Assembly: GCA_032358255.1 (NCBI GenBank) | Contig: JAULBX010001669.1 | Span: forward strand, 62,001 to 126,000 | Length of the DNA: 64,000 nucleotides | Reading direction: 5' to 3' | From: Heterotrichella gracilis | Lineage: Eukaryota; Sar; Xanthophyceae; Tribonematales; Xanthonemataceae | Shown: positions 16,889 through 59,584 of the stretch, piece by piece | Layout: each line of letters begins with the position of its first letter | Numbering within the stretch: the first letter of the stretch is position 1 | Notes under the pieces: model-generated | The model's database searches: none | What the model saw: only the letters and a program-made list of their open reading frames with translations | Told to the model about the DNA's origin: nothing | Position numbers and translations under genes: made by a program

Positions 16889-19800
16889 ATGTCGGTGAAC
16901 GGTGGGGGTGAAATAGACGAGGAGGTCGGGCTGTCTGGCTCCTTACCCATCGCCATTACAGCACCCCTCCTCCACCACCGGCGCTCAAACGACTACCACC
17001 GCACCAACTCGTCCTACGCGTCAGCGCGCAGCTCATCCTACGGCACCTCACCGTTCCGTGTGGGCTCCACAAGCGTCTTTTCGCTCCCGCCGCAGTTTGC
17101 TGAGGAGGTGGTGCAGGTAAACACATTGCATCTTTCCCTGCTTGAACTTGTTTTCCCGCGGTTTTTCCCTGCGTGTGTAGAGGGAAGGGTGTTCTTGCGG
17201 GGCACCTTTGTGCATGCTTGCAAATGCTTGCAAAACATCTTTTCTTCGTCATACAACACACAACTGCGTATGCACTGAGCACACCACTCTGCTTCACCTA
17301 CCCACTCACTCTAGCCGCTTCCTCCCCCTGCCTCAGGAGCACCGGCGCAGCAGTATGGAGCACAACCGCAATGCATCCATGCGCCCCCGCCAGGAGTCAC
17401 TTCACAGCGTGGACTCCATCCCCGAGATGACAGGGTCCCCAGCAGCACCTGCGGGGGTTACACCGCCACCTGCGCCCGGGGCACCGCTAGGTGGGGGCAT
17501 AGGGTTTAGGGTTTGGGGTTTAGGGTGAAGTGCTCCTGGGACACCGCTAGGTGGGGGCCATTTGTACTCCTGCGCCACCCACTGGTATATGCATGGACAG
17601 CAGCAACCAGGGCATGATGTTGATTTCATATGAAATACGGCATCGTTGTCAGGGCATGACCAAGGGTGTGTGGACATCCTAGTGTGTCATGTTGCTCGCC
17701 ACGCGTGTGCATGTTGATCACACCAAGCCATCCAGGTGGTGCATAGCAGACAATGGCCTGGGATGGCATGTCGGGGGTTGTGCATGCAAGCGGCTGGGCT
17801 GCTATTCACGACCCTAATCTGGCTGTACTGCTGGAATTACCACCCGCATACTGTAATGTCTTCACGATCCAAACTCCACTGCAACCGATGTGCACAGGCA
17901 AACAGTCTGTGAAGGAAGAGGAGGAGGGAGGGGATGAGGGGGGGGATGCCCCAGAGGAGAGCCGGGGCCAGATCCTTTCTCGCTCCATTCAAGCGGGAGT
18001 TATCAACGCCATCGTGTGCCTCCCTGCGCTCATGTCATATGCAGCCATCATTTTCAAGGTGGGCATCAAACAGGCAATCCTCGATTAATCATCTCTCAAC
18101 GCGACGGGTACATTATTGACTTTATCAATATTCTTACCCCCCATCCTCAACTTACCTTATCTCGTTTCTTACTCCTGAACCCTGTCCCCGCTCCTATTTC
18201 CTGTCCCCACAGGAGCCCTTCTTCGTCCCTTACATGGCCCTCCTCACCAAGTAGCCAGCCCTCCTTCAATCGTTTGTTATCCTAAAACCCTGCCCTAAGC
18301 CTCAATTCCAACCCCCACAGGAGCCCTTCTTCGTCCCATACATGGCCCTCCTCACCAAGTTCCTGTTCCTGTCCTCGGCCATCCACCAGCTTGTGTTCTG
18401 CATGGGCAGCACGCTCAAGTTTGCAGTGGGGCAGGTGCAGGACGTGGGCCTCATATTCCTGTCAGCAATGGCCACCTCGCTGGTGGAGGATGCAGGTGGG
18501 TGGTTTAGGTGTTTTTTTGTGGCTGATTGCGTGGGTTGTGGGTGGGATTGTGGCGCTGGGGCGCAATGGTTGCGTCACGGATGAGGGTGCAAAGTTGCAT
18601 CAGAACAGCAACATCAGAGTGAGGTTTGTGCAGGGGTTCCGCACATGTATTGCTTCTGCATGCAAGCTCTTTTTTGTACCTGTTGCTATTGAAGTCAACG
18701 TGTGCGCATATTGGTTTGGGCCCCGTAACCAATACCATGTCAATGCATGGATTCAACCCCTACAGCTGTCAATAACACATACTCCACCTGGCAGGTGCCT
18801 TTGGGCTTGATGACAAGGAGACCCTTGGCACAGTGCTGCTCACCCTGGCTGTCAGCACAGTCATAGTTGGGGTACTCATTGTGGGAGTAGGTGGGTGGCC
18901 ATGATGTGGGATACCCCTGTATGTGTTGGCTCAAGGCTGCTTGCTTGTTGCACCCATCTCAGCATTTGACTGCAATGTGTACAACCTGTGTGATGATACA
19001 ACTGCTTGGTATACCAGTCATTCTACCCATGGCTCTGGCTGTTGTGTATTTAGCTCTACTGATCGTTGTGGCAAAACTGCATTTCCTATTTATTTCCCCA
19101 GGTTACTTCAAGCTGGCAGGTCTGGTGCAGTATGTGCCCCTGCCAGTGGTGGGAGGCTACCTGGGCTATGTGGGGTTCTTCTGCCTGGCAGCAGGGTTTG
19201 CACAGGCGACAGGTGCGTGCGGTGATCCTCTGAAAGTATCACTGGTCCACAGCATAATCATACTTGACTGGGACAGGCTAGGTTGGGTCATTGGATGTGA
19301 AATGCATCGGCACAGTATGGGTCGCCATGAAGCAGTTCCACACATGACTCATGTGACATGATGTGTTGGGTGGCAGCACCTGTTGAAATAATTATTATCG
19401 ACCTTGCGCATCGCCCACATGATTATAACTTTGACCAAAACTTCCGATGTAAACCCTGGTAACACTCGTCCACTGGCTTGCAAAACCAGGCATCTCCCTG
19501 GACGGGTGGAGGGACTGGCTGCAGCTGTTCAGCGCCGATGCGGCCATCAAGCTCTTGCCCGCCTTTGCCACCACCGCCACCCTCATGACTGTGCTCCACA
19601 AGGTGTCCAACCCCCTGGCCCTCCCGGTGGTGCTGGTGCTGGTGCCGGCGCTGTTCTACGCCCTGCTGTTTGGCAGCGGCCACACCATGGAGGATGCGCA
19701 GGACGCTGGGTGGCTGTACAAGCCCACGGTAGGTGCTCAAGTTACAGCTGAACAGCAAAACGATTGGTCCTGTAAAGCAGTTGATTGGCATCTATTCACC

Positions 19801-22800
19801 GGGAGTCTTCCAGGGTGATGTCATGGCGAGGGAGGTCATGAACTTGTGTCATTGCTTTGTAGGCAGAAGGGCTGCTCTGCAACTGTTGTGCTCCTCAACG
19901 CAATATCTGTCAGTACAGGAAAATATAATTACAACATTCACTTTGTATTCCGTTGCATTTGCCTTTCTTTGGAAGATTTTCATTCGAATGTCTACATTGG
20001 TATATACCTGTGCGTTCCTCAATTGCCCGAGTATCTCATGGTGACCTCATTTCCCTTCCACTCTGCTTCGGTGCAGGCTGCCAGTGACGACCCCGAGTTC
20101 TGGCACATCTACAAGCTGTTCAACCTGACTGGCAAGATCTACTGGCGGGGCCTGTGGGAGCAGTCAGGGAAGCTGCTCATGCTGTTCTTTGTGGTGGCAT
20201 TTGGGTCCTCACTGGACGTGGCTGCCATTCAGCAGGACACACCAGACAAGCTGGACTACAACAAGGAACTGATGACTGTCGGTGAGTGTTCTGAGGACAA
20301 GCAGCTCTGCCATGGCTTTGCTACAAGCTTTGCTTTGCTACATTGCGACCCTCATCGTAGGTCGTACGAATGTGGGAGATGTAGGCTGCCGCTCAATTGT
20401 TATTCTAAATGGGCCAACAGCTTGAGCAATTTTGACATTTGCTGGGTGCTGCAGGTCTGTCCAACATCTGCGCTGGCCTGTCTGGAGCAGGCTACACAGG
20501 CTCCTACATCTTCTCCCAGACCATTTTCAGCATGAGGATGGGCGTCAAAAGCACCGTGAATGGCTACATAGTGGCAGCTGTCGAGCTGCTTGCCTTCATG
20601 CTGCCAATCCCCATTGTTGCATACATCCCCAGCTTCTACCTAGGGGCGCTCATGATCTGGTTTGGGGTGGACATCTCCATGGTGAGTGTGTTTTTCCGAT
20701 ATCAAAGCCTTGCCACGCTGATTGTGTGGGCATGCATGACTTGAAGGCGTTACAAAACGTTCGTTAACAAATCCATTTTGACTATCATTCTCCTTAAAAG
20801 GCTGGATCCTGTGACCTTGATGATTGTATTATATCTAAAATATACAGGATCATCTGCAATTGCCTCCTGTCCCCTGCAGGACTGGCTGGTGCACTCATAT
20901 GGGCGTGTGACCTCGATCGAGTACACCCTGCTGTGGGCCACCTTTGGCATTGTGCTGCTCACCAGCCTGGAGGTGGGGATCCTGGCGGGCATAGTGCTGG
21001 CGGCACTGCACTTTGCCTACGCCTACGCACAGGTGAGAGGTGGTGCATGCATGCCAGCCCAGGGTGAAGCTCCATTGTTGGGGGAATGGAGGCTGTCAAG
21101 GAGTCCGCTTATTTGTGTTGAAGACATTGAATTGCATTGATGTCACATGTCGATAGTGCAATTTGTGGTCAATTTGATTGTGTTTTTGTTCTTGATGCAT
21201 GTCACCACTGATGATTTACCTGCATGTGATTACTCTTCCCAACTGCATGATTGTACATCATGCATTGCAGAAAGCATGCATGCGCATGGCAATCAACGCA
21301 TTGCTAGTACATGTATCATTTATCTGGCAGTGTAGTTGCAAACATGAGTGTGCGCTTGCAGGTCAATATGGCCGCCTTCAAGGTCGTCCCCAGCCGCAGC
21401 GGGGCCCTGCGTACTTTTGACCAGCGCGCAGTGATGCAGCTGTTCTCGTCGCGCATCACAGCCATCTCCCTGCAGGGCTACATCTTCTTCGGCAGCTCAC
21501 TAAAGATTAGTGAGAAAGTGGAGGAGGTACGGGCAAGATAAGAATGTCGGTTTTCTGCCTTAATCCATTGTTGAGGCTTGCGCAAGCATGTGGAGTTTAA
21601 TCAGCAATCCTACACGCCTTTGAGCAGCAATGCAGTTTGTACCTTGAGGGCAGGTTGCATTGGGTGCATGCCCCTACATGCCAATTAATGTGTGATCCAC
21701 CCTGCGTGCCCACGTTGAACGTTTGTCCTGTGTAGGTTGGGGCAGCGCTGGCGAAGGTTAATGCTGAGGAGGTCCTCAAGACCCGCACTGCCAAGATTAT
21801 TGATGACGGCACCCCTGCTGAACCAACCACCCAGCCTGCTAGCACCTCGACCAAAGTCACCTCGTCATTCACATTCTTTGCTCCCAAGGTCTCCAAGCAG
21901 ATGGTATCAAGGCACAAATTGTTCCGGGAGTCATTCACTACTGGTGCCATTGATGCAATCAATGCATCGCCCAAGTTCTTGCTCCTTGACTTCAGGTAGG
22001 AAATGCAGTCTCAACTAATCTTGACGTGCAGCACATTGCATGTCAAAAAGCTGCACTGCATATTTGCACTTTTTGTCATCAGGCCCTGCAAGACAGTTGT
22101 GTCTCGGCATTGTGTGATACCATATGCTTTTTCCTTTTCCTTTGCCTGCTAAGATGATTGTACACTGTTGACTGACAGATCCTGCTGCAGCATGGAACAT
22201 AGCCATCCACTGCTCCGCACGCATGTCCAGAAACTGGGGCACTCAGCATCAATATCCTATCTGCAGGCGAGTAACTGGCCTCGATGCAACAGCCGCGCGT
22301 TCATTCTCCCTCATATTCTCTTCCCTCAAGCGCATGGACATTGACCTCATCATCACACACCTCCCACACGACAAACCGGAGATTAGGAAGCTGCTGTATG
22401 CCAATGGTGTCATTGCAAAGGACGACAATGAGCACAGGGGGCGCTGCCTGGCCTTCCCCACCATGGAGCGGGGCTTGGCGCACTGTGAGGAGCAGATGCT
22501 GGAGGTGGCGGTGGAGTTTGGCCTGTGCAGGCCACTGGATGCAGAGATGACCCTGGCTGAGGTAGGTGCATTATGGTGTGTCAGTCCGTGCAAGTGCAAG
22601 CATTTGCTGCAATGTTTTTTTGGCATTTAAATTTGCCATTTCAATTTGGGTGAATCCAGATTGTCACCTTGTACTGTTTTTGGTTGCTATTGTCGCGCAA
22701 TTTTGAGCCACAAAAACAGTGCTTGCTGCTGCATATTTTGCCACACATGTAGCAGCATCTAGAATCCCCCTGCTGTCCCCTTGCAGGTGCTGCAAACCCA

Positions 22801-23305
22801 GCTGGAGCTGCCCAGGGAGATCCTCCCCACCCCCTCCATGACAGACTACGAGCGCGCCTCCAAGGAGCTTGCCAGCTTCACGCAGCGCTCATTGGTGGCA
22901 GCCGGCACCGTGCTCACCAACATCGATGATCCTGTTGACGAGCTGTACATCGTGCTGAGCGGCTCCTTCATCAGCCACATCAACATCTCCAGGGCGGGCA
23001 AGCACGACGTGTTCCATGTGGAGGTGCCAGACAGCGATGGGCACCTGGACTCCGCTCTGCGCGAGCAGAAGATTGGGCCAGGGGCCATCATCGGCGGCAT
23101 GGACTTCTTCCTGCAGGCCCCCAGCTCCATGCAGCTTGTGGTGGAGCGGGACAGCGTGGTGCTCACACTCACCCGGGACCAGTTCCTGAGGATGGCTGAG
23201 AAGGCGCCCTACCTGCTGGTCATGCTGGAGACCATCATGCTGCGCTCCATCAGCCTGTCGCTGTCACACCTGTATGAGGCCTTTGACAAGAGCAGCTCGT
23301 CGTGA
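16889..23305 (+). CDS. SulP-family anion transporter with STAS and cNMP-binding-like domains (SulP-B)
   Basis: Paralogue of SulP-A. Fourteen exons give a continuous frame of 995 residues: 16889-17116, 17337-17490, 17898-18058, 18321-18495, 18795-18890, 19102-19212, 19490-19728, 20077-20281, 20455-20681, 20880-21032, 21362-21526, 21736-21995, 22267-22561 and 22787-23305. The N-terminal 180 residues are cytosolic and Ser/Arg- then Glu/Gly-rich, with an RRSSM patch. The membrane core shows GQVQDVGLIFLSAMAT, VQYVPLPVVGGYLGYVGFF, FFVVAFGSSLDVAAIQQD and SGAGYTGSYIFSQTI. STAS runs from GYIFFGSSLKISE through VTGLDATAARSF and is split by a disordered insert. The C-terminal cNMP-like domain is in one exon, whereas SulP-A has an extra intron there. 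Its cassette reads GGMDFFLQAPSSMQ, without the usual arginine, so nucleotide binding is doubtful. Two splice edges of this gene are duplicated. Confidence 0.9.
17476..17562 (+). repeat. Duplicated donor edge with telomere-like spacer (SulP-B intron 2)
   Basis: The exon 2 end and donor (CACCGCTAG/GTGGGGGC, 17482-17499) recur 60 bp downstream at 17542-17559 as a decoy donor. Between them lie three degenerate TTTAGGG/TTTGGGG units. Use of the decoy would add intron sequence to the message. Confidence 0.85.
18205..18361 (+). repeat. Duplicated acceptor plus exon start (SulP-B exon 4), possible poison exon
   Basis: The CCCCACAG acceptor and the first 39 bases of exon 4 (real copy 18321-18359) are repeated 108 bp upstream (18213-18251) with almost no change. 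The upstream copy reads the same 13 residues (EPFFVPYMALLTK) and then meets TAG. Splicing into it would give an early stop right after the first membrane segment. Confidence 0.85.
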
Positions 23306-23442
23306 GGAGCTGGGGGGAGGTTGGCAGCTGAGGGCAGCAGCCCGCCTGGTCAGCTGTGGGAGCCTCGTGATTCTTGAGCTTGGGGGGGAGGGTGGCAACC
23401 GAGGGTGGGGGCCGGCGTGGTGAGGATTGTGCTGCGTCATGA

Positions 23443-30339: not shown

Positions 30340-33300
30340 CTACGCCGCCGCCTGCACCCTCCCATCGCACTCCTCAGCAAGGCTGCGCAGCTCGCTCTCC
30401 CCAAACGTGACGCTGCCCAGGATGCCCGCCTGCTTGCGCCAGGTGGACCCCGGACCGCTGTTGAACCCCTGCATGCTCACCAGGATGGCGGGGTTGCACA
30501 GCGCGCGGTAGGTGCACTCTAGCTCCACCTGCTTGTCGCCCTGCAGGGGGCTCAGCGCGCTGTCCAGGAACCTGCAGGGGCAGCCACACACCAGGGGTCA
30601 AAAAATGGGAAAACCTGAGTATTACGACTATGCATGATTATTTCGGTACAAAAATCTGTTTTTTTTGTATTTATATAAAAGATATTGAAGATAGTAAAAT
30701 TGCACGGATAGGATTTCACGCTCCCAGCACCCTACTCCATCTCGCCCCATGCATCCCACCCACACAACACTGCCCCATGTGAATAAACCCTAAGCCTAAA
30801 CCCAGTGCTGCACATTACCGCACGCATGCATTACTATGGAAGCTGTGGATACTTGTTGACCAACAACACCCTGACCGCACCTGCTGTACGTCCTGCGCGC
30901 CGCGCGCTCCTGCTGCAGCAGCTCGGCCCCATCCACCTGCCCAGTGCGCCACCACGCATTCAGCGCCGAGGGCAGGCCAAGGTCCTCCTCCCCACGCACC
31001 ACCGCATCCTCCGCATACAGCACCGAGCGGATGTCCAGCGACCGGGACCGGAACTGCGCTGCGCTGCGCCGCCGCGCGTCGGCGCCCTCCGGGGCGCCGG
31101 CGGCGGGGGGCGCCGGCTGCAGGGCTTGGCTGTTGAGGCTGCCGGCGGACCGCGACGCGGCGCTGCCGAGGCCCAGCCGGGATGCGAAGGAGAGGCGGCG
31201 GCGGGAGCCCAGCGGCACCGGGCCGTCCAGGGGCTGGCTGGTGGTGCGCTGCAGGCCTGGGAGGGGCACAACGTGTGTTCAGCGGTGTATGTGGCAGGTC
31301 CAGCACAGTGCATGCAAAACGTGGGAGAGGGCCACTTGCCAACAGTCATTGGAAGCGTCCAGACCCTGCAAGTGCAGTGTTGCGATACATGTGCATGGAC
31401 AAGGTGTAACATAGCACATCGCTCTGCTGCTCATGTGTGTTGTGCACAAAGTGGTCAGCGCACCTCGGCGTTCCCCGGCCGCATCCCGCAGGCCGCCGTG
31501 GCCCAAATCCAGCGGCAGCGACCCGCTGCTGCCAGCCGCCTCAAACCGCTGCAGGCGCGACAGCGGTAGCGACAGATCCAGCGCGTCGTACAGCGTCACC
31601 CCCATGCATTCAGGGTCGGTCAGGTCAGGTGAACCCCTGCGCGCCATCCCCGGCTGCACCGCATCAAGCACCACCAGGCCCTGCGCATGCGACTTGGAGG
31701 GCAGGGGGGCCACTGCTCTGCGCCGAGAAGCAGCTGGCGGTGCGGTGGGTTTGGGTGGCTGCAGGGTCCTGGAGCTGTCCTGCGGGTGGAGGTCCTTGGC
31801 AAGGTCCACCTTGCGCATGCCCAGGGGGGAGGCCAGCCACTGGGGCAGGTAGGCGCGCTGCGTGACGGGGGCGGTCAGCCGCACCTGCAGGTGAGGGAAG
31901 AGAGGATCACCATGTATCGGTATGTATAATTTGGGCATAGGCAATGTGGGCACCTGTGGCACTTGTGCATTCTACTGGTAGCTCAGCCACAGCATGTTGA
32001 ACACCATGCACACATGCCATGGAAACCAGGGCATTATACGTGCATCTCCAGCCCTCACATCATGGTACACTTCAGCCCATAAGGCGCCCTGCAGCAAGCC
32101 CCATGTGCGTAATTGTGTGCGCCTGCTTCTTCAACAGCTTGTCAAACCCTAAATGAAATCCCAAACCCTATATTCTACACCCCAAACCCTAGACCCCACC
32201 TGCGTGACCGTGTGTGCCTGCTTCTTCAGCAGCTTGTCAAACGACTCCAGCTTGAGGCGCTTGGAGGTCTTGCCCATCCACCCTAGCCAGCGCGCGCCCC
32301 GCGGCTGCTGCTGTCGCCCAAAGGGCGCCTGCGTGCGCGAGGTGGACGCCTCCGACACAGGCGTGCTGCCGCCGCTGTCGGGATCCCGGGGTTCGGGCAC
32401 CGCCTTGTGCAGATTGAGCAGCGGCAAATTGGCCACGGGCTGCAGCTGGGGCTTGGCGGGGGTGGTGGGCGAGGGGCGGGCATCGGGCGGGTGGCGGGGG
32501 GCCGAGCCTGTCGAGTCCGATGTGGTGTCACCGCGATTGGCGAGCTCCGCATGGCTTGGGGATTCAGGGACCGTTGGGAGCGACAGCAGCTGCGATTCGT
32601 AGGGCTTGAGGGGCTCTATGTGGGTGGCGACGGGGGCGGGGGCGGGCGCGGGCGCGGCGGCGGGCGGCGGCGCGTCGGTGTCCGCCGCAGCGGTGTGCAG
32701 CGCCAGGTTGTGCTGCGTGAGCGTGGCGAGGTTGGCGGCGCTGGGGGGCCGCGACGACTCGGGAGTGAGCGGCTCACAGCTGCTGCTGCGGCTGATGCAC
32801 CCCGCTGAGGTGTCGGTGCTCCAGCCATCGTTGGAGTACTTGGTGGGGAGGCGCATGGAGGCGCTGGCGGCGGCGGGTGGCTGGGTTGGGGAGGGGGGCG
32901 GCAGCGTGCTGGGCTGGGCGGCGGGCTGCTGGGAGGGGCCGCGGCCTGCAGGGGCAGGGTGTGTGTGTCAGTGGCAAGCGCAAAAGGTCTGGAATACTTG
33001 GTTTGTTCAAGCACATGAGGGTTGGTCAGCCGCCAGAGGGCATTGGTCCACCGCCAACAGCAAGCCTGGCAACGATTACCTTCAATCCCCTGGAACAAAC
33101 CCTCCAGGACCCCTTCAAAGCAACCATGGTCACCCATGTGCACGTAGTAGTACCTTGGTGCAAGGAGGCAGAGGCTCTATAACAATCCCCGCAACCCTTT
33201 CATCCTTGTATTATACCCCTTCAACAACTCATACTAACAGGCACCAATGCCCATGGGCAGGTAGTAGTCCGAGCCTTAAAAAACTCTACATAAACTCCCT

Positions 33301-44124: not shown

Positions 44125-46695
44125 ATGGCGCATTCACACCCAGTCTGCTTCCAATGCACGTCACACTCGCAATTCCGCCGCCCACTCGCACCACCCGGCC
44201 TCACGAGGTCCAGGCACGCCCAGCGCCATGCCACCCCCCGCCTGGTGTGCCAGCTAGCCACCAAGTCTCCCGAGGCCAGCATCGACCCAACGGAGACGGA
44301 GGTGGCCGCCTTTGCACCCGCCACGGTGGCTAATCTAGGGCCAGGGTTTGACTGGATGGGCTGTGCAGTTGAGGTAGGGTTTCCACCCAAACCCCAGTAG
44401 GGTGCGCCTGGACCACTGTTAGGGTGTATGCTACTGTCGCTCGCTTGCCCTCCATCCCAGCCAGTGCAGTACCTTTGAATGGGCTTACACAGAGGTACAT
44501 GCCAGACCCTGCAAAATTGTTCAAATATTGCACACAGGTGCCACACCCACACGAGTGCAGCCCGACTATCGCAGGCATTGCTGCAGGCCTATTATATGCA
44601 CACCATCCACTTACCCTGCAACACACACTGTACTCATCCAATCCACTTGCACAGGGGGATGGCGACACAGTCATCGCACGGGTACTGCCGGACCGACCAG
44701 GGGAGGTGGTTATCGCCAGCATAGAAGGGGATGGCGGGCGCCTGTCCCTCATCCCTGCTGAAAACTGTGTTGGCATCGCAGCCCTGGAAACCCTTAAGCT
44801 GCTGGGAACACCAACCTGTGGCATCGAGCTGTCACTGAAAAAGGTACACCCTGGCTAGGGTTTTCCTTAACTACCTAGGTAGCTAGGGTATGCACTGACA
44901 CTGACACTGACACTGACACCGCCACTACCACATATGCACTGCCACTGCCTGTGCCACACCCATGTGCACAGGGTGCTACCGTCTGCATTACGACTTCCCA
45001 TGCGTATCAGGTATGTCGCCATCCATTCGCAGTTGGCTGCCTATTGCCACCACCCCACCTCCACCCACCCCCTCCCCTCCTACCTCCCTTTCAGGGTCTC
45101 CCCCTGGGCAGTGGCCTGGGCAGCAGCGCGGCCAGCGCAGCCGCGGGCGCGTGGGCGGTGAACATGCTGTTTGGCTGCCCCCTGACCAAGCACCAGCTGG
45201 TGTACCCTGGGCTGCAGTCCGAGGCGGCGGTGAGCGGGTACCATGCAGACAACATCGCACCCGCGCTGCTGGGGGGCTTTGTGCTCATCAGGTGCGGCCA
45301 GCGACTAGGCAATGTTGGGCCTAGGGTGTATGATGGCGACTATTAGAAGGGGTCCATGTGGGTCCATGTGTCGATCGACCACCGTGAACACATGGTTATT
45401 CCCAACTCAGTGCATCCCGCCCTCGCACAGCACATGCTTGCTCACGCCACACGACATAGTCCTCACCACAGGGGACATGGGTCCGGCGTGCAAACACTCA
45501 AACACTGCTCAAGTACCCTTCCTCGCGGGGCACTGTGCCTCGTCCCCCTCCACTCACACATTCCCAGCAGCTGCCACCATCTCACCCTTCCTCCCCACCT
45601 CTTCCAGGAGCGCCGACCCCCTGGACATCCAGCAGCTGCCCTTCCTCGGCCAGGACCTGTGGTTTGTGCTTGTCAACCCGGTGTTTGAGGCACCCACTGC
45701 ACAGATGCGCGCGGTGCTGCCCAAGCAGGTGGACATGAGCCAGGCAATAGCAAACTGCGCGATGGGCGGGTCGCTGGTGAGAACCTAGCTAGGGTTGGAA
45801 GGGGGAGAGTGGTACTGAAGAGAACCTATTTAAGGGTATAGGTGTTAGCTGGAGCAGGGTCGCTGGTGGGAACCTGGCTAGGGTTTGGGGTGGGGGTGCC
45901 AGTCTGGACTTGCTCAGGGTATTGTCTCGTTATACATTTGGATTTGGATAAGAGTCCCTGAGTGCTATCAAAATCAATAAGGAACCTGTGCAACGGAATG
46001 TTTAAGGGAGAAATGCATTTGACCTATTTCAGCAATTATATTGGTTTTAAATTCCGAACTGATCCCTGCAGGTGGCTGGCATCCTCACCGGCAACGTGCC
46101 GCTCATTGGCCGGGCGCTGGACTCCGACGTCATCATCGAGCCCGTCAGGGGGCCACTCATCCCAGGGTTTGCGGCGGTCAAGGCGGCTGCGCGCGCGGCT
46201 GGCGCACACGGGTGCACCATCAGCGGGGCGGGGCCCACAGCGGTGGCCATTGTGGATGACCCAGTCGTGGCGCAAAAGGTGGGTACGGTGGGGTGTGGGG
46301 GGCCGGGGCAGGATGGATTTTTGGCAATTGGGAGCGCTTCCTTCCAGGCGGCAAATGCTCTAGCGGGGTGTAGGTGGAAGCAGGGGCGTGTGTGTTTGAT
46401 GGCAGGGCCTGGTGCATCACCATGGCAGATGACGCACAACGTTGGATCTGGCATAATGCACTGGATTATGCATGTCCATTCCGGGTAGTGTGAGCTGTCG
46501 CATGCTTTGCATACCATAAGGATAGAAAAGTACAATGACCGTGCATATCATTCCTTGGTCGCTATCGCCGAACAATGGTTCCCCACGGCGCAGGTGGCAG
46601 ACGCCATGTGCGCTGCATTCCGCACCCACGGCCCCCTGGAGGTGAACTCGTGCAAGATTGTGCGGCTGGACCCCGTGGGGGCAAAGGGACTATGA
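44125..46695 (+). CDS. Homoserine kinase, probably plastid-targeted
   Basis: A GHMP kinase (ThrB type) that phosphorylates homoserine for threonine and, in plants, methionine synthesis. Six phase-checked exons (44125-44373, 44655-44843, 45095-45291, 45608-45776, 46072-46278, 46594-46695) encode 370 residues. The first ~50 residues are rich in His, Arg, Ser and Thr and poor in acids, consistent with a plastid transit peptide. The enzyme then shows APATVANLGPGFDWMGCA, the ATP-binding GLPLGSGLGSSAAS at the start of exon 3, and the C-terminal GHMP motif GCTISGAGPTAVAI. A piece of the exon 4 donor edge (TCGCTG/GTGAGAACCTAGCTAGGG) recurs downstream at about 45859. A (CACTGA)n microsatellite sits at about 44893-44920. 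Confidence 0.9.
45767..45892 (+). repeat. Duplicated donor edge (homoserine kinase intron 4)
   Basis: GGGTCGCTG/GTGAGAACCTAGC around the exon end at 45776 is repeated with a few changes (GGGTCGCTGGTGGGAACCTGGC) near 45858-45880, each followed by TAGGGTT. The copy keeps a GT and could act as a second donor. Confidence 0.75.
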
Positions 46696-47818: not shown

Positions 47819-50800
47819 CTAGAAGAACCTCCTGCCAATATAGCGCTGGCACCACGCCTCCACAGGCTGGGCCACCACCCGCCACACAGCCTCAAGCGCA
47901 GCCTCATTCCCCTCCCCTGCCTCACCACTGCCCCCCTTGTGGTGCCTGGGTGAGGGGAGGAACGCCTTGTGGTTGCGGCTGCTTCGGAAGCGCCACATGG
48001 CACTCTTCACCATGTCTGCGAAAGTGGGGTTGAGGGTTTAGGGTTGAAGGGCTAGGGCTAGGGTTTGAGGTTTAGGGTGTAGAAAAGCGCCACAGTGCAT
48101 GTCTGCGTGGCTGCAAGGGGGCACATGGGTTGTGTGCGGTGACCGAGACCCTTCACATCCCTAATACCACGTGTAGTGGCAGACCGGACGTGCATGCTTT
48201 ACACCTTCAATCCATCTAGTGATCCACCACTCCAATGACAGGTTTGACCCTAAGGACAACTGAAAGGACACCATGTCACATGATGCATCTTCAAAGGGGT
48301 CACAGACAGCGGGTGACCACCTCACCCCACCCCACTCACCGTACAGCTCATCCTGTTGCCTGGGCCCACCCGCAGCCTCCACCACCGCGGCCTCCACCCC
48401 CGGATCCGCCATCACCTCCTCCACCACATTGGACACATGGAAATCGATGGCTGCGGGGGGCAGGTCGGATCGGCACATGGGCCCCATGTGCGCCAGGTCA
48501 GCGAGGGTGCAGGCTGCCAGGGGGGCGGGGTACAGGGAGTGAAGGTAGGAGGGCCAGGTGGAGGGGGGATGGGGATTGGTGGGGGTGCCTGGGGATAGGA
48601 AATGGAGGGTGCGTAAGGGTCGTAGCCAACAAGGAGAGTTTAGTGAAGGGTTTGCCACCTCATTTACTTTAGTGAAGCTACAACGATGCATTAGCTCCCA
48701 TGTAGTAAGTAGTAGTTGTTTGATGCCGATGCCACATGTGGCTGGCTATACAGGCACAGTGCCCATCCATGTATGATTCTGCAACAACCATTTGCATCCC
48801 CTCTAGGGTTTGGCGACAATCCTTACCTGTCAGCGGCACAAACACACCCGCAGGGGGAGGCAGGGGGGGCGCAGACCCTGGCGCCTGCCCCAGGCGCGCA
48901 GCCCAAACCCTTGCAAAACCCTTCAGCATCTCCACATCCCCTTGCATGCCCCCAAAGGCGGCGCGCATGATGATGGCGCGCACCAGGGACGCCGAGCTAG
49001 GGTCTAGGGTTTTGGGGCAGTTCAAGAAGAGCTGGAGCAGGGTGGGGGGTGCTGCTTCCCCGCTGTCTGGCAGGGAGGAAGTTTGGCCTGGCGGTGAGGA
49101 GGACTGGTCTGGCGGGGGCTTGTGGTCGCGGACGGGCGCCTCGGCCATCTGCAAGGGTTTGGGAGTAGGGTTTTAGGATTATGCAGTGCAGTGGCAATGG
49201 CCCCACCCACACCAGTCACCCGCACACCTCCCTGCTTCCCCATTCCCACTCCACAACGTGCTGTGCGATGCTCACACCACCCAATCCTCTCAAAATCCCT
49301 TCACATTCAACTTTTGCGACACAGCAGGCATGCCGCCAAATTGTGCAGCCCCTATGTCACAACCAACAGCAACTATGGTAGCAACCCACGACTGCCTGCT
49401 ACCAGGCTAAGATGTGTCAGCCCTCAGGTGACCCCCCCATCCCCCTCCTCACCTGCTGCACCATCGCCAGGCACGCCGCCACCTGCGCCGCCCCCATGTG
49501 GTACCCCTTGGCCCCCGCAGCCATGAGCCACACCAGCATGGGCAGCCAGGGGTGCAGCAGCGCATCCTCCAGACAGATGATGAGGGCGCGGCGCAGGAAA
49601 TCGGAGGGGTCCTCCTTGATCAGGTGCAACGCAGTCCTGTGGGGGCATGCAACAAGTTATGCTTCGCAGTGGATTGCTTTTTGGATCGTACTATATTAGC
49701 GGATGATGATGGTGCAGCGCAGGAATTCCGAGGGGTCCTTCTGACCACGTGTAATGCAGTCCTGTGGGGGCATGTGATCAGCTCAGATCGGTAGTGCATT
49801 GGTTTTTATACTACGTGATAACAACGTTTCATTCATGGTGCATGAGTGGGACCAGTGTTGGATTGAATGGGTACTCTACTACGGTAAGCGGCTCAATTGG
49901 CTGCGACGCACTACAAAGCAGCTCACACCCCCTCCCTTGGCCCTACCTCATTGCCGCTGCCCCCCTGCACAGCCGCACATTCTTCTGAAGGGCGCTTTTC
50001 AGTGCGCTGGTGCTGCCATGGAATTTGCCACCAGCAGGGGGGCGGTTGCTCTCCAGGAATTTGGAATCCCAGTCGACAACGCCACCCTCCCCGGGGCGCA
50101 CGTTGGTCATCAGCTTGATCACCACATTCTGACCTGTGTGGGCACGTAGTTGTAGGGAATTAGATTATGGTGTCCACCTAAGAAATCAGCGTAAAGTCAG
50201 CATAAATCCAGACAGCGCGGTACAATGGAAACTCTTTTCCGGCATGAAAGCATAAAAAATGGGAGGCAATCACTGGACAAGAAGAAAGAAAGAAAGAAAG
50301 AAAGGGAACGCACAGAGGCATAGTTAGTGGGGAAGAGAAGGCGTTCCCAGGCTCCAACTCCTTCCTAACATTGTGCGCGAGGGGGTTATCATCCCCAAGG
50401 AGGTCAACTGCACAACCTTTTCTTCCATTCCCCACCTGGCTCCTTCAGCTTGGCACCAGCCAGCACTGTGTTTGCCGACCACACGCTCTCCTTCTCTAAT
50501 TGTCTGGCGTCCACCTGCCCTGCGTCGCCCCCCTGGGTGCATTGGGTTCCCTCCCCTGGTCCTTGAGACTCTGCCACCCCCCCTTGCATGGGGCGGGTGC
50601 GGTGGGGCCACCAGTGCCACTGCCACTCACCGGCAGGGGTGCGGTGGAGGTAAAACACAACCACCTGCATGGAGGGAATGCAGGGTTCCGGGTTTGTTAT
50701 GATTGTGGAGTACGGAATACGCTAACCATAAACCTTGCGCACCACTGTGAAAGGACGCCAGTGAGGTGGGTACACGCATTTCAGCCGCAACCGATTTTGT

Positions 50801-51944
50801 TCCGCCGCTGGGAGGACATTGGTCATTAACAAAATCCAACTGCCAGCGCCTATGGGTCGGCTATGCCAAATGCTGGTTGGGTAAGGGACGTGTAGGGTAT
50901 AGCCGCGGCCTCACCTTTTCCTGGACCTCCTTTTGGCGCCGCATCATGAACGAAAATGCATTCTCCTTGCCGGCCTTTGCCTGGGACCCACTGGTGCTCT
51001 CCCCACCTGTGCGCCGCTCCCCACATGGCTGCACCCCACCACCACCACCACCACCACCACCACCACCACCTCCACCACTGCCACCGTCACCGAGGCCACC
51101 GCCGCCACCATCACCACCACCTTGCATGTACGGTGCAGCACCAGGCCCTTCCCTTGCCATGGATGATACAACAGGGTTAGCGGGGTGGGCGCTAGGGAGG
51201 GAGGCGTCAGGGGGTAATAATAGTGGTTGTCCCGCCGCGGCATCCTCGCCAGGTGCAGAGGCGTGGCCTGGAATGCTGGTCGACGGCTGACAGCTGCCCG
51301 TTGGTGCCTGCTCCAGTGGTGATCCCTCACTGCCACAACTGCCACTCGGGTGCGTGTCACTCCTCGGGGCCGTTCCAGGAGTGTCATCTGGGGTGGGCGA
51401 AGTGGTATATTGCCGTGGGTGGTTCCGCGCTGCGTTGGGCTGTGCGGTTTGTTCACCGTGTGCTGTGCCACTAGGGCACTCCTGTGTGGTGGTGCACGGC
51501 GTGGCAGTGTCTCGGTCCGCTCTGCTGTCTATGCAGGAGTTGACATGCAGCTGCAGCAGCGGGGTCCCCACTGAAACCCCACACACGGGACAAGGCGAGA
51601 AGGAGGAAACCTGCAAGCCCAGACAAAGAATGTAAGGATATCGGATCCTTGAGGCGGCAGGTTGCACCTACATATTGGGTTGCATGCAGCTGTTGTGGTG
51701 GAGGGTTTGAAAGTTCAAATTTTGAGCGGCTTCCAGCAAGCTCCCAACCGACCTCCTATCATATAGGCTGTTCCAATGTACGAGTACCCATTCACACACG
51801 TACCCCTGGTCTGGGTTTGGAAGGCACACTGGCGGTTTTCTGCCTTTTTGCGGAGTTGGTACCAGCGGGTTTTGCTGCCAGCCACCATGGCACAGCAGGT
51901 TTTGGCGCGGGTGTGTGCTCCTGTGACCCTCTCGAGCCCTCCAT
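47819..51944 (-). CDS. Unknown protein with Rad18/UBZ4-like zinc finger
   Basis: Eight exons (51944-51804, 51610-50915, 50664-50631, 50133-49947, 49636-49453, 49148-48827, 48513-48340, 48015-47819) join in phase to 644 residues. Residues 1-47 are basic with a KRQK cluster (possible nuclear signal). Then comes CPVCGVSVGTPLLQLHVNSC, a C-x2-C-x12-H-x3-C finger like UBZ4 fingers of Rad18 and related repair proteins. About 200 disordered residues follow, with a Gly-run encoded by a (CCA)n microsatellite (51037-51070). The C-terminal ~370 residues look folded and conserved: VVVFYLHRTPAGQNVVIKLM, DWDSKFLESNRPPAGGKFHG, a helical part with DFLRRALIICLEDALLHPWL, and a final RYIGRRFF. I do not recognise that domain. 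Ubiquitin binding and DNA repair are inference from the finger only. One exon is just 34 nt. Confidence 0.75.
47985..48107 (-). repeat. Duplicated acceptor edge with telomere-like spacer
   Basis: The last acceptor of the zinc-finger gene and its exon start (CGCAG/ACATGGTGAAGAG..., exon start 48015) are partly repeated about 90 bp upstream in the transcript (copy about 48083-48107). The interval is filled with degenerate CCCTAAACC units (48028-48078). Confidence 0.7.
49574..49775 (-). repeat. Duplicated acceptor plus about 60 bp of exon
   Basis: The CCCCCACAG acceptor and first ~60 bases of the 49636-49453 exon are repeated about 126 bp upstream in the transcript (copy about 49702-49775) with roughly one change in six. 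Here no telomere-like spacer is present. Confidence 0.8.
50279..50318 (+). repeat. Dispersed (GAAA)n-GGGAACGCACA motif, copy 2
   Basis: A GAAA run followed by GGGAACGCACAGAGGC, lying in an intron of the zinc-finger gene. Other copies are near 2365-2410 and 56450-56490. The conserved non-simple part after the run suggests a common origin, perhaps the end of a short interspersed element. Confidence 0.6.
51035..51075. repeat. (CCA/CAC)n microsatellite in coding exon
   Basis: Trinucleotide run of about 12 units plus degenerate flanks. On the minus strand it encodes the poly-glycine part of the zinc-finger protein. Confidence 0.9.
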
Positions 51945-52861: not shown

Positions 52862-55800
52862 ATGGTGTTTTGGTCATGCGTGGACCAGTCCTCGGTGGAG
52901 GTGGTGGAGCAGTTTGGGAAGTACTCGCGTATCGCGTACCCTGGGCTGAACTGGATCTGGTGCTGCCTTGGTGCGATAGCTTCCCTTCTTAAACCCCAAC
53001 ACGTGTTGCCTGTCCATTTACCCTTCCGTGCTTGCGGTGGATTGACTTGCACAGTGTTGGAAGTTGTCACCACTGATTTGGACCCTGGATTACACCCTTA
53101 GGCGCACTCTGGTGCATTGCCTGGCTTCTGTCAGCCAGCAGAGACAGAAACAACTGATGTCATTGTCAACTTTGCCCCTTTTGTAGAGATGCATGCAGTG
53201 TACTGTTGACCCCTCGTACAAAATGCTGGGGTTTACCACTGTGCAGGTGAATCTGTGGCGGGGTCCCTCTCCCTTCGAATCCAGCAGCTGGATGTGCGCT
53301 GCGAGACCAAGACAAAGGACAACGTCTTTGTGGACGTGATTGTGTCAGTACAGTACCAGGTACCCAGTGGGGGAAGTGAAGGAAAAAATGGTTATTATCT
53401 TTGGGGCAGAAATTGAACCATTTGTTTTCCATTTTGTGTTCACAGTTTTCTTTCCATTTTTGTGTTAGCATTTGCATCCATGTCGGAGTACTCATGTGAT
53501 CACAGGGATTGCGGCTACAGCACGCCATGTAGGTCAGATGCAATATATGCTGATGCCAAGCAATGGGGTGCTTTCATTGCAGGTTGTCAAGGAAAACATC
53601 TACGATGCCTTCTACAAGCTGACAGACAGCCGCAGCCAGATCACCAGCTACGTGTTTGATGTGGTGCGCGGCACAGTGCCTCGGATGAACCTGGATGAAG
53701 TCTTCCTGGTGAGATGCAATGCGCTGCATGTGCACTGCATTGGCGGCTGGATACCATTACTGGAGGGCACGTAGTCAGAGTCCTATAGCATATGCATTGA
53801 TGCATGGACACATACATTCAAATCAGTTACAATATACAGCAGCAATCCAATCACTTGGTCTGTCTGTCACAATGCACAAGTGAATAAGGGTGGTGATTCA
53901 CCTGTATGGTTCCACCCCTGCAAGCATCCATGTGTACATATGCAGGCCCGGTGTGCTCTCTTGATAAGCCGTTGCAAGTTCTTTCAGTCACCGCATGTCG
54001 CTTATAACTCACCGAGACACACCCTAGACCATAAAGCTAAACCTTGAACAGTAGAACGCATTCCGCTTGTTCAGGCCAAGGAGGAGATAGCCCACACCCT
54101 ATCGATACACCCTAAACCCTACACTGTGAGAACGCATTCCGTGTGTTCAGGCCAAGGAGGAGATTGCCCAAACCCTATCGATATACCCTTAACCCTAATC
54201 CCTAAACAGTAGATTTGTATTCCCCTTGTTCAAGCCAAGGAGGAGATTGCCCACACCCTATCAATAAACCCTAAACCCCTAAACAATAGAATGCATTGCT
54301 TTTTCAGGCCAAAGAGGAGATTGCCCACACCGTGAAGGACGAGCTGACCAAGAGCATGGCCTCCTTTGGGTTCATGATTGTGCAGACGCTGGTCACAGAC
54401 ATCGAGCCCGCCAAGCGGGTCAAGGACGCAATGAACGAGATCAACGCAGCACAGCGCCTCAGGTATGGTCACTGACCCATGCATGTGAAATATTACCAGC
54501 ATTACACTGCTGGCATTTGCGCTGATGCCATCTCCAATTATGAGAGTTTGATACAAGTGACACAGATTTGATACCTGCAGGCTGAGCACTTTTATGATGG
54601 TTCTCGGCGGAGACATATCATTAGTAAAAATGATTAAACATTATTCCTGCATGTACAATAATCTGACACCAGTATGTATGCGTCCAGTTTTGATTTCCCC
54701 CTTAAATATACTACTGCGGTTGTCTTTTATTTTGTTTATTTTATTGAGAACGAAATGTCTAAAATTACAAACATTTAATACCATTGTCTGCAGGGTGGCT
54801 GCCTATGAGCAGGCTGAGGCCCAGAAGATCCAGGTGGTGAAGGCAGCCGAGGCAGATGCAGAGGCAAAGTTCCTGGCTGGCCAGGGTATTGCCCGCCAGC
54901 GCCAGGCCATCATCAACGGGCTGAAGGAGTCTGTGAACGACTTTGGGCGGGACCTGCCGGGCATCAACTCCAAGGACGTGATCGAGATGATGCTCATGAC
55001 GCAGTACTTTGACATGCTCAAGGAGATTGGTGGGTGGGGCAGGGGGCTGGGGCGCAGGAGTATACGAAATTTTTTATTAAATTTGACGATTTGGAATTAC
55101 ATGTGGGTTACACGCATATGCTCAAGGAGATTGGTGGGTGGCGCCGGCGGAGGGGCGCAGGAGAACAAAACGTTTTATTAACTTTGACGATTTGGAATTA
55201 CATGTGGGTTAGATGCATATGCGTGTGTGCAAGTGGGTGTCAATGAGTCTGCGTGCATCTATGGTCCGACCCAGTGGGAGGGTTTCTACCGGCCGCAGTT
55301 GCAACCAGCTGCATTGACAGCAGCCGTTGTTGGTGTTGTACAGTAGCCGTGTATGGAATGCAATGGATGATCATGGATCATGGCGACCACGAGCTCCAAC
55401 GACACTTGGTCTATGCACTACCAATCCTGACCATCCGATGATACAGAGTAGGGTACCCGTAGCTGGCATTGCAACCCTTGAGGCTATTTTGGCTTCAAAG
55501 CACCATGTGTGCAATGCAGGTGCCAACAACAAGAGCTCTGCAATCTTCGTCAACTCTGCCCCGGGGTCTGTTGGGGAGTTCTCCCAGCAGGTAAGTAGTT
55601 GTAACTAGTGCACCAGGGTGAAGTTACGGCTAAACAGTGTGCGCCAATTGGTGCCATCTATCATTAAAGCTTGACATTAAATGCACTGGCTTGTCACATG
55701 TGATGCACACTGGGGCGGGGGCACCCACCGGTGTTGTGCGCACTATCACGCTCCATGCCATAAATGGCATGCACTGCGGCAGCGTGATAGTGCGCACAAC

Positions 55801-56075
55801 ACCCCCACCCCAGATCACTGAGTGTGGTGTGGCTGGCACAGGGCTACTACATACTCATTGCTTGCATTGAGATCTATTCACCTCACATAATATTTGCAAT
55901 GTCCCACTATCAAGCTGTAGTTGGGCAATAATTGTACTCCTCTCTTTTGCGCCACAATGATTTAATTTAGCCACTGGTTGCAATGACGATATCTTATGAT
56001 ATGTTCCCTGCCTATCTGGCGCAGATGCGGAGCGCTTTCATGCAAGCCTCTGCGGTAACTGAGATGAAGCGCTGA
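52862..56075 (+). CDS. Hypersensitive-induced-reaction (HIR) type band-7/prohibitin-domain protein
   Basis: A membrane-associated SPFH/band-7 protein, plant HIR type. Seven phase-checked exons (52862-52970, 53247-53359, 53583-53708, 54308-54462, 54794-55029, 55520-55590, 56025-56075) encode 286 residues. It starts [20 protein letters not shown]; the first segment lacks the Gly-2 needed for myristoylation, but cysteines near the start could be acylated. SPFH features follow: [76 protein letters not shown], then the coiled-coil [20 protein letters not shown] and [16 protein letters not shown]. It probably oligomerises in lipid microdomains. Exon 4 is preceded by three decoy acceptors and exon 5 is followed by a duplicated donor. 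Confidence 0.9.
54060..54340 (+). repeat. Fourfold tandem array of an acceptor edge (HIR exon 4)
   Basis: TTCAGGCCAAGGAGGAGAT-type units occur with GCC at 54075, 54151, 54235 and at the real exon start 54308, spaced 76, 84 and 73 bp. Each decoy keeps about 25 bases of exon (coding AKEEIAHT in the real copy), then CTATCGATA and CCCTAAAC-type telomere-like repeats. Two decoys keep an intact CAG acceptor, and the third reads CAAG. Confidence 0.92.
55012..55222 (+). repeat. Tandem ~105 bp duplication including the HIR exon 5 donor
   Basis: The unit starts in the exon (ATGCTCAAGGAGATTG/GTGGGTGG) and runs to ATTACATGTGGGTTA. A second copy starts at about 55119 and keeps the donor. Spacer differences are mostly in the GC-rich part. 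Confidence 0.88.
55731..55802. repeat. Perfect 22 bp inverted repeat, 28 nt loop
   Basis: 55731-55752 is exactly complementary to 55781-55802 (arm begins GTGTTGTGCGCACTATCACG). The loop itself folds (ATGCCAT/ATGGCAT). Flanking GGGGCGGGG and CCCCACCCC extend it imperfectly. It lies in the last intron of the HIR gene. It may be a foldback element or a small-RNA precursor hairpin. Confidence 0.9.
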
Positions 56076-56856
56076 GCACTGCTGAGCTCGACTGAGTGGC
56101 CCTTGGTCGCACCCAGGCTGCAGCATAGGGATTGACTGTGGCACCCATGGCTGCTAGATGGGGTTTGATACTATCATATCATGCACCCGGCAGTTGGGAT
56201 CTGCCATGGCCCTCAGCTGCTCGGCACACGCCACACAGTGTCACCCTCAAATCCTTTCAAATGGCAAGCCTCACTACTTAGTCTTAGAAACTCACGTCCT
56301 ATATATAGGCAGCTACGCAAGTCTCAATAGACCTTAGCAGTCCACTGGAAGCATGTGTCAGATCTCAGCATAGGCCAGGCTTTTTCATAATAGTTACAGC
56401 GCAGAAAGCATCACCAACGCAGCAATGCAGGAATCGGTTAATTTTCATTGAAGAAAGAAAGAAAGAAAGGGGACGCACAAAGGCGGAGTTCAGGGGCCAC
56501 TGGCTCGCACTAGGGCACCGACCAGCCAGAACGGCCGGTCAAGCACAGGCCTTAGCCTATGCCAGCATGTATGGCATGCAAAAGGGTTTGACGTTTGGTA
56601 TATACATAAGGAAGAGTACAGTAGAGCTGCTAGGACTGCAGGCATAAGTACAGGTTACAAGTCACATGATCACTTATGAGACAAAACGTAAGCAACAATT
56701 GTTATCTAGGAACACCTTCTGACAAGTATTTATGAGAATGAGAAGTTGTGCTGACTAGGACATACTTTGTCTGGTGCATGCATGCCGGGTAGCATGGCAA
56801 TGCATTGCGCCAATTCAGTAAACGGAGGCTGGCCAGCATTGCACAACATGCTGGGC
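56076..56856. other. Convergent spacer with dispersed GAAA-motif copy 3
   Basis: 781 bp between the stops of HIR (+) and the glycosyltransferase (-). At 56450-56490 a GAAA run is followed by GGGGACGCACAAAGGCGGAG, the third copy of the dispersed motif. No gene seen. Confidence 0.55.
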
Positions 56857-59584
56857 CTATTTCTTCTCTCGTTGTCCATAGTACCAGGTGGCAAGCGTAT
56901 TGGGGTCAACACCCAGGTTGTAGGAAAGCAAAATCGCCTGCAAGCATATGCACAAACCCTTAGGTTCTCGCCGCCAATACAATCAAGGCTTCTGCCCCGG
57001 CAGCAGTGCTCAGCATGATGTACCGTACATAGTATGTAGTGCTCTGAGACGCATTGGCCATGTGTACCACGCCTTGCTGGGCATATTGCCTGGGGCCATC
57101 TGCTTTCATGCGCATTATCCTGATGCAATGGAGCCCTGTGGCATGCAGTGGCCCATGAGCCAAACACGTGGGCTATGCATGCGGCACACACAAACCCATT
57201 CAATGCGACCGTACATTTTAAGGGTTAAAGATAAAGCTAGACAGCCTGCGTTACCCCCATATTTGCAGCATAGCCATCACAGAACGTTTGGTATTATGCT
57301 CAATCCCACCTGGTTCATGAGCGTCGTCTTGATGAATCCGTGCTTGTGCCAGCGCCGGGCCGAGGTGGTGATGGGCTGGCGCACAATGACAGGGGGGCCA
57401 AGCTGGCGCAGGCGCCGCACCAGGTCAACATCCTCCATCAGCGCTATCTCTCGAAACCCTTGCAAGTCCCTGCGTGGACCAACCCAGCATGACTGCTGCG
57501 CCCCCATTCCATGCACACATTGCCAGCAGTATCATGTTGTGGTGGTGGTTGTATATATTGTAAATGTAGTTGCATGCATTGTACTTGTACTTGTAACTGT
57601 ACTTGTAACTGTAAATGTGACTGAAGTTTAATATTGTAGCTGCAGCCGTACTCCTGTGTGACCTCTTAAAGGTGCCACTGACCCACCTGAATGTACACAA
57701 TGACCCGCCGATCACGGTACCCACCTGAATGTGTGCGCCTTGACAAAGATGGCCTGGTCCCCGTAGGGCATGTGCGTCAGGTGGGTGCGCAGCCACACGC
57801 CGCAGCGCAGCACGCGACCTCCCCAGCTGGCGTCCTGCGAGTTAAGGGTTTAGAGGATTCAGCCAAACCCTAAGCCTAAACCCTACATGGATGCGCAGCC
57901 ACACGCCGCAGCGCAGCACACGCCCTCCCCATCTTGAGTCCTGCAGGGGGGTTTAGGGCAAGGGTGGAATATATGCCCCACAGGTGAGATTCACATGCAC
58001 AGCAGCTGGTAGTGGGGCTATAATTGCAAGCAGCAATCATTGTCAAGTGTGGATTATGAAGCTGGAATATGCAGCTACATCATGTACCATTTTCTTTACA
58101 AACTAAATTTGCACCTTTTGATTGGATGAGAAATTTGCAAACCCGGTCCCATCATGGCGCTCATTGCATTGACGGTTCGAGTACATCACACGATCCCATA
58201 TGAAAGTGCATATAGACGCTGATTGGATGCAGAGTGCCAACCCTCACATCTGTTTGTATGGTTTCGAAGCAGCCCCACTGGCCTGACCCCGGCCCATGCT
58301 GCGCAGAGTGCTGCTCAAATGCCTGCCGCATGTGTTGTTGGTACCTGCACCAGGGTGGGGTAGTAGAGCTCAAGAATGCAGATTTAGGGTATCTGTGTGA
58401 CTCCGTGCATTAGGCATGGCAGTGCTGGTTAGAATTGTACATGGCATAGGATCAATGCAAGTGATAGTATGACCGGACCACCCATTTCCACTCCTTCACG
58501 GTGCTCACCCGGGGGCCAGGTTACATTCTGCAGGGAGGAACAGCAGAGTGCCGCCACTGCAAAGCCCCGATGTGGCGTGTTTACATAGCTTGGATGGCAT
58601 GCACTCTTGGACAAACGAGGTGTGCACTTCGACAACCATGGGTGCGCGTTTGCAACAGGTGCTCGTCTGAGCGCATGCAAATATTGCGCCATTCACAGTC
58701 TCACCCATGAGGCAGGGTGCTGTCTGCATGGAGGAACAGCAGGGTGTTGCCGCTACAGTGCCCCGCCCCCGCGTTCATCTGGACAGCCCTCCCCTTGGGC
58801 GCACACACCACCTGCAGGGCCATTGCACGCAGCTAAGTTTCTGGGCCTGAACCCTAAACCCTAAACACGTGGACAGAGGAGTGCCGTGGTGCGGTAGAGC
58901 ACACACCACCTGCAGGGTCAATGCACACAGCAAGGTCTTAGAGCTTGAACCCTAAACCCTAAACACGTGAACAGAGCAGTGCCGTGGTGCAATAGGGCAC
59001 ACACCTTTGCCCCTGCCTTGCGAGCAGTGGCTGCTGTCCCATCCCCGCTCCCGCCATCCACAACCACCACCTCCGCCACTGACACCCCCGGCGTGGAGCT
59101 GGAGGGCAAACAGCTGCAGGGGTGAAACCTCACGTCACACAACTATGTGGGGAGGAAAGCACGTGTGCAAAAAAGCACCTGTGGTCCTAGGCTGCAGTTA
59201 TATTCAGAGGGTCGCCATCAGCCAGCAACCTGCAGGCGTGTATGGTGCTTCACCTTGCAACTGCAATCCCAACCCTTGCCTCCTCGTCCTGCAAGAATAT
59301 AAGGCACGGTCACGGAAGTAACAGAAAAGACCTCTGTGGTGTTTCTAGCGCTTGCAGCAGGGGAAAAGCGACTAAGGCTGAGGTGGGGGAGCGCAACATA
59401 CCAGTGCTGGAATGATTACAGAGAGGTGCAGTTGGTCAGCTGGGGTTGCCTGCTTCACGCGTTTAGTGGTATCGCCGCCTTGCAGCCGATTCTTCAAGTA
59501 TGAAAGTAAGGAGAACGCGCCAGCTACTGGTGGGAGTGCACCGCTCAGCGCGGCGTGATCGTCGCTAGGCATTGGCATATGCAT
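56857..59584 (-). CDS. Family 2 glycosyltransferase (TIGR04283-like)
   Basis: Eight phase-checked exons (59584-59402, 59288-59254, 59113-59005, 58811-58705, 58344-58248, 57834-57725, 57469-57310, 56937-56857) give 293 residues. GT-A fold signatures: HLSVIIPALDEEARVG near residue 55, EVVVVDGGSGDGTAATARKA, a nucleotide-binding-like stretch APKGRAVQMNAGAG, the DxD-like LLFLHADSTLP, HMPYGDQAIFVKAHTF, ALMEDVDLVRRLRQLG, SARRW, and a terminal NLGVDPNTLATWYYGQ. This order matches bacterial and plastid-lineage TIGR04283 glycosyltransferases. Substrate unknown. No transmembrane segment is seen; the N-terminus of about 50 residues might be an organelle leader. Three of its exon edges have duplicated copies in neighbouring introns. 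Confidence 0.88.
57776..57946 (-). repeat. Duplicated acceptor plus ~60 bp exon start (GT2 exon 6)
   Basis: The exon start at 57834 (GACGCCAGCTGGGGAGG...) has a diverged copy about 110 bp upstream in the transcript (57889-57946) with its own GCAG acceptor. The copies are separated by AAACCCTAAGCCTAAACCC-type sequence. If spliced in, the copy would run into the telomere-like spacer. Confidence 0.85.
58505..58750 (-). repeat. Duplicated exon end and donor (GT2 exon 4)
   Basis: CTGCTGTTCCTCC...GGGTGAG at the real exon 4 end (donor after 58705) is repeated about 195 bp downstream (58505-58560), keeping GGGTGAG. Confidence 0.75.
58800..59005 (-). repeat. Tandem duplication of acceptor edge with CCCTAAA spacer (GT2 exon 4)
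   Basis: The acceptor CCTGCAG/GTGGTGTGTGC (exon start 58811) is repeated at about 58898-58918, and a further partial copy abuts the exon 3 donor near 59000. Each unit also carries AACCCTAAACCCTAAACACG and a GTGCCGTGGTGC segment, with a period of about 90-110 bp. Confidence 0.88.

Follow-up and report, generated by a model that had tools for sequence, protein, structure and literature searches.

The 64-kb window, that is, the whole stretch of DNA analysed here, is eukaryotic nuclear DNA with a GC content of about 53%. Seventeen genes were predicted from the sequence with splice-aware models corrected by hand, and 112 introns were used in the tests. In these predicted models the mean intron length is 250 bp, and the GC content is 61% in exons vs. 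49% in introns. Similar values are on record for the green alga Coccomyxa subellipsoidea C-169, with a GC content of 53% in the genome, 59% in exons and 49% in introns, introns of 240 bp and exons of 182 bp (PMC3446292). Pfam matches were obtained for a sulfate transporter (SulP), a FIG4-type SacI protein, a GHMP homoserine kinase, an SPFH protein (HIR) and a GT2 glycosyltransferase-type gene product (GT2). Viral and prokaryote collections yielded no algal relatives when queried with the epsilon-COP and HIR proteins. SulP-A and SulP-B (8497–23305) are divergently transcribed neighbours and paralogs, and SulP-B contains STAS and cyclic-nucleotide-binding domains. Duplications were searched over the whole window irrespective of gene models and with low-complexity repeats masked, those scoring at least 36 being classed as strong, and were further checked by self-BLAST of the window, by reading by eye and by junction-centred alignment. 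Every count and P value given below refers to this one 64-kb window and its predicted gene models.

Six genes carry recurrent duplications of splice edges. All loci named in an earlier note on this DNA were present (SulP-B 2, FIG4 2, homoserine kinase 1, a zinc-finger gene 2, HIR 2 and GT2 3), and GT2 gained a fourth, short one. In SulP-B (plus strand), the donor duplication (17471–17558) consists of a working edge (17471–17498, junction 17490/17491), a telomeric insert (17499–17530) and an inner copy (17531–17558). The SulP-B acceptor duplication (18162–18360) has its inner copy at 18162–18252 and its working edge at 18270–18360 (junction 18320/18321); the copies share 47 of 48 nt around the junction. 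FIG4 (minus strand) harbours a first donor duplication, D1 (32099–32242), with the working edge at 32194–32242 (junction 32200), a telomeric insert at 32148–32193 and the inner copy at 32099–32147, and a donor array (33130–33458) with the working edge at 33428 and inner copies near 33339, 33251 and 33134. The homoserine kinase donor (45768–45885, plus strand) is present as 45768–45796 (junction 45776/45777) and 45857–45885. On the minus strand, one zinc-finger acceptor duplication (49576–49807; working edge 49576–49682, junction 49636; inner copy 49702–49807) has no telomere repeat, and the second acceptor (47994–48108; working acceptor 48015) has a telomeric insert (48027–48085) and a short degenerate copy at about 48086–48108. 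The zinc-finger gene also contains a (CAC)n tract (51032–51121) encoding a long glycine run.

HIR (plus strand) carries four arrayed copies of an acceptor edge, with inserts of CCCTAAA (54018–54331; working acceptor 54308), and a tandem donor duplication with a period of 104 and without telomere repeat (55014–55222; working donor 55029), whose block comprises 16 exon and 92 intron nt. The remaining four loci lie in GT2 on the minus strand. Acceptor duplication A1 (57782–57944) has its working edge at 57782–57838 (junction 57834) and its inner copy at 57888–57944; the insert between them (57839–57887) reads TTTAGGG and then CCCTAAA, head to head. The short donor duplication (57681–57732) pairs 14 nt at 57719–57732 with 57681–57694, and a longer donor duplication (58495–58765; working edge 58692–58765, junction 58705; inner copy 58495–58569) has no telomere repeat. 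In the acceptor or whole-intron duplication A2 (58801–59005; working acceptor 58811), a 98-bp unit with TTTAGGGTTTAGGG is present twice, plus 11 exon nt. Another GT2 intron stretch (57548–57623) is a minisatellite of short TGTAAC/TTGTAC-type units.

Each of the 11 strong, independent duplications found in the whole-window scan spans a splice junction, and none was confined to intron, exon or intergenic DNA of the window once low-complexity sequence was excluded. Four scan rows labelled as intron and two labelled as other exon represent inner parts of the same 11 loci. Two weaker cases, the 14-nt GT2 copy and the degenerate zinc-finger acceptor copy, bring the total to 13 in six genes. In shuffled windows score 36 was never reached, and no class had more than 0.17 duplications per window at score 28. 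Alignment of exon edges to their adjoining introns, a check proposed in the earlier note and run here across the window, returned a copy at score 28 or above for 12 of 220 junctions (about 5.5%), vs. 0.25% when the same edges were aligned to other introns. The duplicated working blocks are 14–108 nt long and hold 8–61 exon nt; with this size they are short head-to-tail duplications as in CST/Pol alpha-type events. Unfiltered BLAST returned two off-junction pairs at score 32 or above, one G-rich and within a 3′UTR (23307/23376) and one C-rich (30215/30331), in addition to coding repeats of G-rich and (CCA)n type.

With blocks placed at random over tolerated positions, the junction position of all 12 loci has a P of about 1e-10. 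Purely intronic copies would be detected in about 80% of cases at twice the divergence and in 59% at three times the divergence. If just 59% of non-junction copies are assumed to be detected, P is 1e-8 for 12/12, about 4e-5 when only the nine strongest loci are taken, and about 3e-6 for 12/14 when the two off-junction pairs are entered as failures. The earlier claim that the duplicated block nearly always straddles a boundary, and does so beyond chance, is borne out by these figures.

The outer copy serves as the exon edge, and the inner copy drifts inside the intron. Outer copies yield intact proteins: the outer donor of the homoserine kinase gives a gap-free GGSLVAGIL against homoserine kinase 4p52, and the alignment of HIR to SPFH proteins runs without a gap across the working junction. 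The inner copies of SulP-B read into stop codons, TGA if the inner donor is used and TAG after the inner acceptor copy. Between copies, 22 of 39 coding differences are synonymous and 17 nonsynonymous (P=0.06 against equal rates), a lean expected if the outer exon is constrained and the inner copy is free. A coding constraint on the inner copies, considered because differences favour third positions, was rejected, as synonymous drift of the outer exon explains the pattern. The exon parts of the copies diverge by 0–19% through independent substitutions and indels. As had been noted earlier, the copies keep splice-like dinucleotides (GT/AG in 14 of 17), but neutral decay predicts about 13 and the retention is therefore no sign of selection. 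Many inner sites have splice scores equal to or above those of the real sites, so that the decoys described in the earlier note are abundant and missplicing at them, judged from these scores, is a real possibility.

Telomere-type repeats are concentrated in introns. The window contains 15 TTTAGGG-type blocks vs. 0–3 for each of 19 compositionally matched necklaces, an excess of 5-fold or more. All 15 blocks are intronic and none lies in the 12 kb of intergenic DNA. For ten of 11 telomere loci the nearest intron edge is no more than 50 nt away (P=0.0013), and six of the 11 telomere-bearing introns also hold a duplication (P=0.0002). The arrangement copy–telomere–copy is present in SulP-B, FIG4 and the zinc-finger gene. 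Among the inserts tested, six of 12 are clearly telomeric, scoring above all shuffles; the earlier statement that telomere repeats lie between the copies thus holds as an association, but clearly for about half of the inserts and not for all. In some duplications (SulP-B acceptor, GT2 A2) telomere-like sequence is located inside the duplicated unit itself and therefore may predate the duplication. Donor-side inserts carry TTTAGGG in gene sense (SulP-B, FIG4), acceptor-side inserts CCCTAAA (zinc-finger, HIR) and GT2 A1 both. This difference in orientation between donor and acceptor sides is suggestive only; the trend is broken by GT2 A2, and some telomere blocks without copies are also reversed. 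Bases at the break ends that match the register of the repeat were clear, as judged by eye, only at FIG4 D1, register or microhomology being unconvincing at the other loci.

Five telomere blocks have no recognisable copy. Four are on the minus strand, two near donors (162–176 and 529–547), one in FIG4, inside an intron and 87 nt from its donor (30784–30793), and one 21 nt from a FIG4 donor (33867–33878); the fifth lies on the plus strand in a 71-bp intron of SulP-A (12420–12430). An identical 19-nt variant telomere stretch, GGGTTTAGGCTTAGGGTTT, occurs in a FIG4 intron (30785–30803) and in a GT2 insert (about 57865–57883), a match suggesting that the inserted repeats may derive from one source. 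In the zinc-finger gene, the telomere-like stretch CCCAAAACCCTAGACCCTAG (48998–49012) lies in frame within a coding exon and is possibly an in-frame insertion. Matches to the telomere pattern in viral contigs were discarded, since those examined (L003, L005, L014) are phages with a CCCTAAA-type motif and unrelated. Phage-like contigs (L014, 2529–9005; L001, L003, L005 and L017) bear up to 10 CCCTAAA blocks in less than 10 kb, several just outside ORFs, which are perhaps a promoter or regulatory repeat.

Introns that bear a duplication have a median length of 324 nt vs. 225 nt for the others (P=0.0003), a gap of about one added unit, in agreement with the lengthening proposed in the earlier note. 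The copies sit on one side of the intron and not at its opposite ends. SulP-A and SulP-B have 12 intron positions and phases in common, including those of both duplication-bearing SulP-B introns, and junction-centred alignment detected no copies in the matching SulP-A introns. The two SulP-B introns are therefore older than their duplications. On this comparison of predicted gene models, they predate the paralog split and the process lengthens existing introns; they lend no support to the idea, also raised earlier, that it could create them. The only candidate for intron creation is the GT2 intron at 58812–59004, predicted to consist almost entirely of two 98-bp units.

The duplications, their position on junctions, the association with telomere repeats and the constraint on the outer copies are read directly from the assembled sequence. 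The reading that suits them best is that they are scars of break repair at exon–intron edges, produced by staggered breaks, fill-in, often telomerase addition, and end joining, which we hold to be about as likely as not. In such an event, one nick would lie tens of nt inside the exon and the other in the intron, so that the overhangs contain the splice junction. Fill-in of both overhangs before end joining would double the junction-bearing block, and telomerase-type addition at an exposed 3′ end, in about half of the cases, would leave TTTAGGG or CCCTAAA between the copies. The head-to-head repeats of GT2 (57839–57887) look like the outcome of extension at both broken ends. The outer copy would remain the functional edge while the inner copy would become intronic and drift, and later slippage between copies could amplify the unit (four copies in HIR, three to four in FIG4). 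Existing introns would in the end be longer and would contain strong decoy splice sites. Repair by fill-in and telomerase-type addition, as suggested in the earlier note, fits the anatomy; the breaks, the fill-in, telomerase, end joining and slippage, the enzymes and the order of events are what we infer from it. One guess for the junction bias is accessible linker DNA between exon-sized nucleosomes, because introners prefer linkers (PMC9860276); another is selection acting as a sieve on breaks that favour exons.

The same anatomy might arise if tandem duplication were random everywhere, with selection removing lethal exon-only copies and divergence at twice the rate hiding purely intronic ones. 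Constrained outer and drifting inner copies would follow from this, as would the reduced detectability of intronic copies. Yet the junction bias persists at 12/14 after the detection correction, and telomere blocks, recognisable even where no copy survives, also lie near edges and are absent from the 12 kb of intergenic DNA; we consider random duplication an unlikely though serious contender. Breaks could instead be biased to exons, with only those blocks surviving that reach a splice site, where splicing removes the extra copy. The lack of intron-only duplications and the 8–61 exon nt in the working blocks agree with such a sieve, but telomere blocks without copies also occupy introns near donors, and several blocks, among them that of the HIR donor, are mostly intronic, which renders this explanation rather improbable.

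Retention for function, with copies and telomere-like motifs adjusting expression as, for instance, decoy sites or intronic splicing signals of the UAGGG type, would account for the high scores of many inner sites and for copy-less telomere motifs near donors. It is very doubtful, since GT/AG retention equals the neutral expectation and the inserts differ from one another in orientation as well as in sequence. Insertion of an introner, or of another transposable element, at splice edges with target-site duplications is more remote still. The copy–insert–copy anatomy would suit it, and introners occur mostly in lineages that evolve fast, green algae among them (PMC9860276); however, the duplications measure 14–108 nt vs. 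3–9 nt for introner target sites (PMC9860276), and terminal inverted repeats were not noticed in an informal look at the inserts. A transposable element shared among the inserts was ruled out, as telomere repeats are the sole sequence common to them. Tandem repeats misassemble easily, but an assembly artefact is hardly credible because the copies diverge from each other, most of them also from the exon.

Intron growth and the origin of new splice sites are an old question with few clear molecular traces. Extending the break-repair reading, we tentatively propose a junction-targeted mutation in which edge breaks healed by telomerase and fill-in would steadily lengthen introns and plant decoy sites at some 5% of junctions genome-wide, a proposal we think less probable than not. 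If common in the genome, the process would supply extra intron length and alternative splice sites by mutation and would tie telomerase to gene structure.

Telomere-associated duplications at splice junctions were not found described in the open literature. The earlier view that no system of this form is known is fair for the combination, but each ingredient has been described (PMC2246262; PMC8355091; PMC4974935; PMC7138796). In introners, intron-linked insertions in algae are a point of likeness, but these are repeated elements, of which none was seen among the inserts of this window (PMC9860276). New introns of Daphnia have direct repeats from staggered breaks and share with our loci the link to intron growth; their repeats measure 4–12 bp and lie at opposite ends of the new introns, whereas those reported here are longer, on the same side and in at least two old introns (PMC4202315). 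For Lipomyces stwintrons, copying of a donor into the intron was proposed to result from a staggered break whose 3′ overhang was filled in, but there 4–7 nt of the donor element are involved, in a single gene, with telomere repeats undescribed (PMC7138796). A tandem duplication crossing an exon–intron boundary, similar to ours in spanning it, is known from the potato RdRp gene; it is a single case that made a new intron, and the abstract says nothing of telomere repeats (PMC4974935). In rodents and primates, short interstitial telomere repeats were inserted at double-strand breaks, some flanked by target-site duplications, and telomerase was implicated (PMC2246262). Duplications accompany 5–16% of these mammalian cases and no preference for splice junctions is mentioned, whereas here about half of the telomere loci are flanked by copies and the duplications are at junctions. 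In mammalian cells, CST/Pol alpha-primase, the machinery of telomere C-strand fill-in, fills 3′ overhangs and thereby generates small head-to-tail tandem duplications of tens of bp (PMC8355091); those followed induced breaks, and telomere inserts or a junction preference were not found reported there. As far as the literature was searched, the parts are thus known, and the combination and its position at junctions are new: break fill-in duplication (PMC8355091) joined with telomere insertion (PMC2246262) would give the anatomy seen here.
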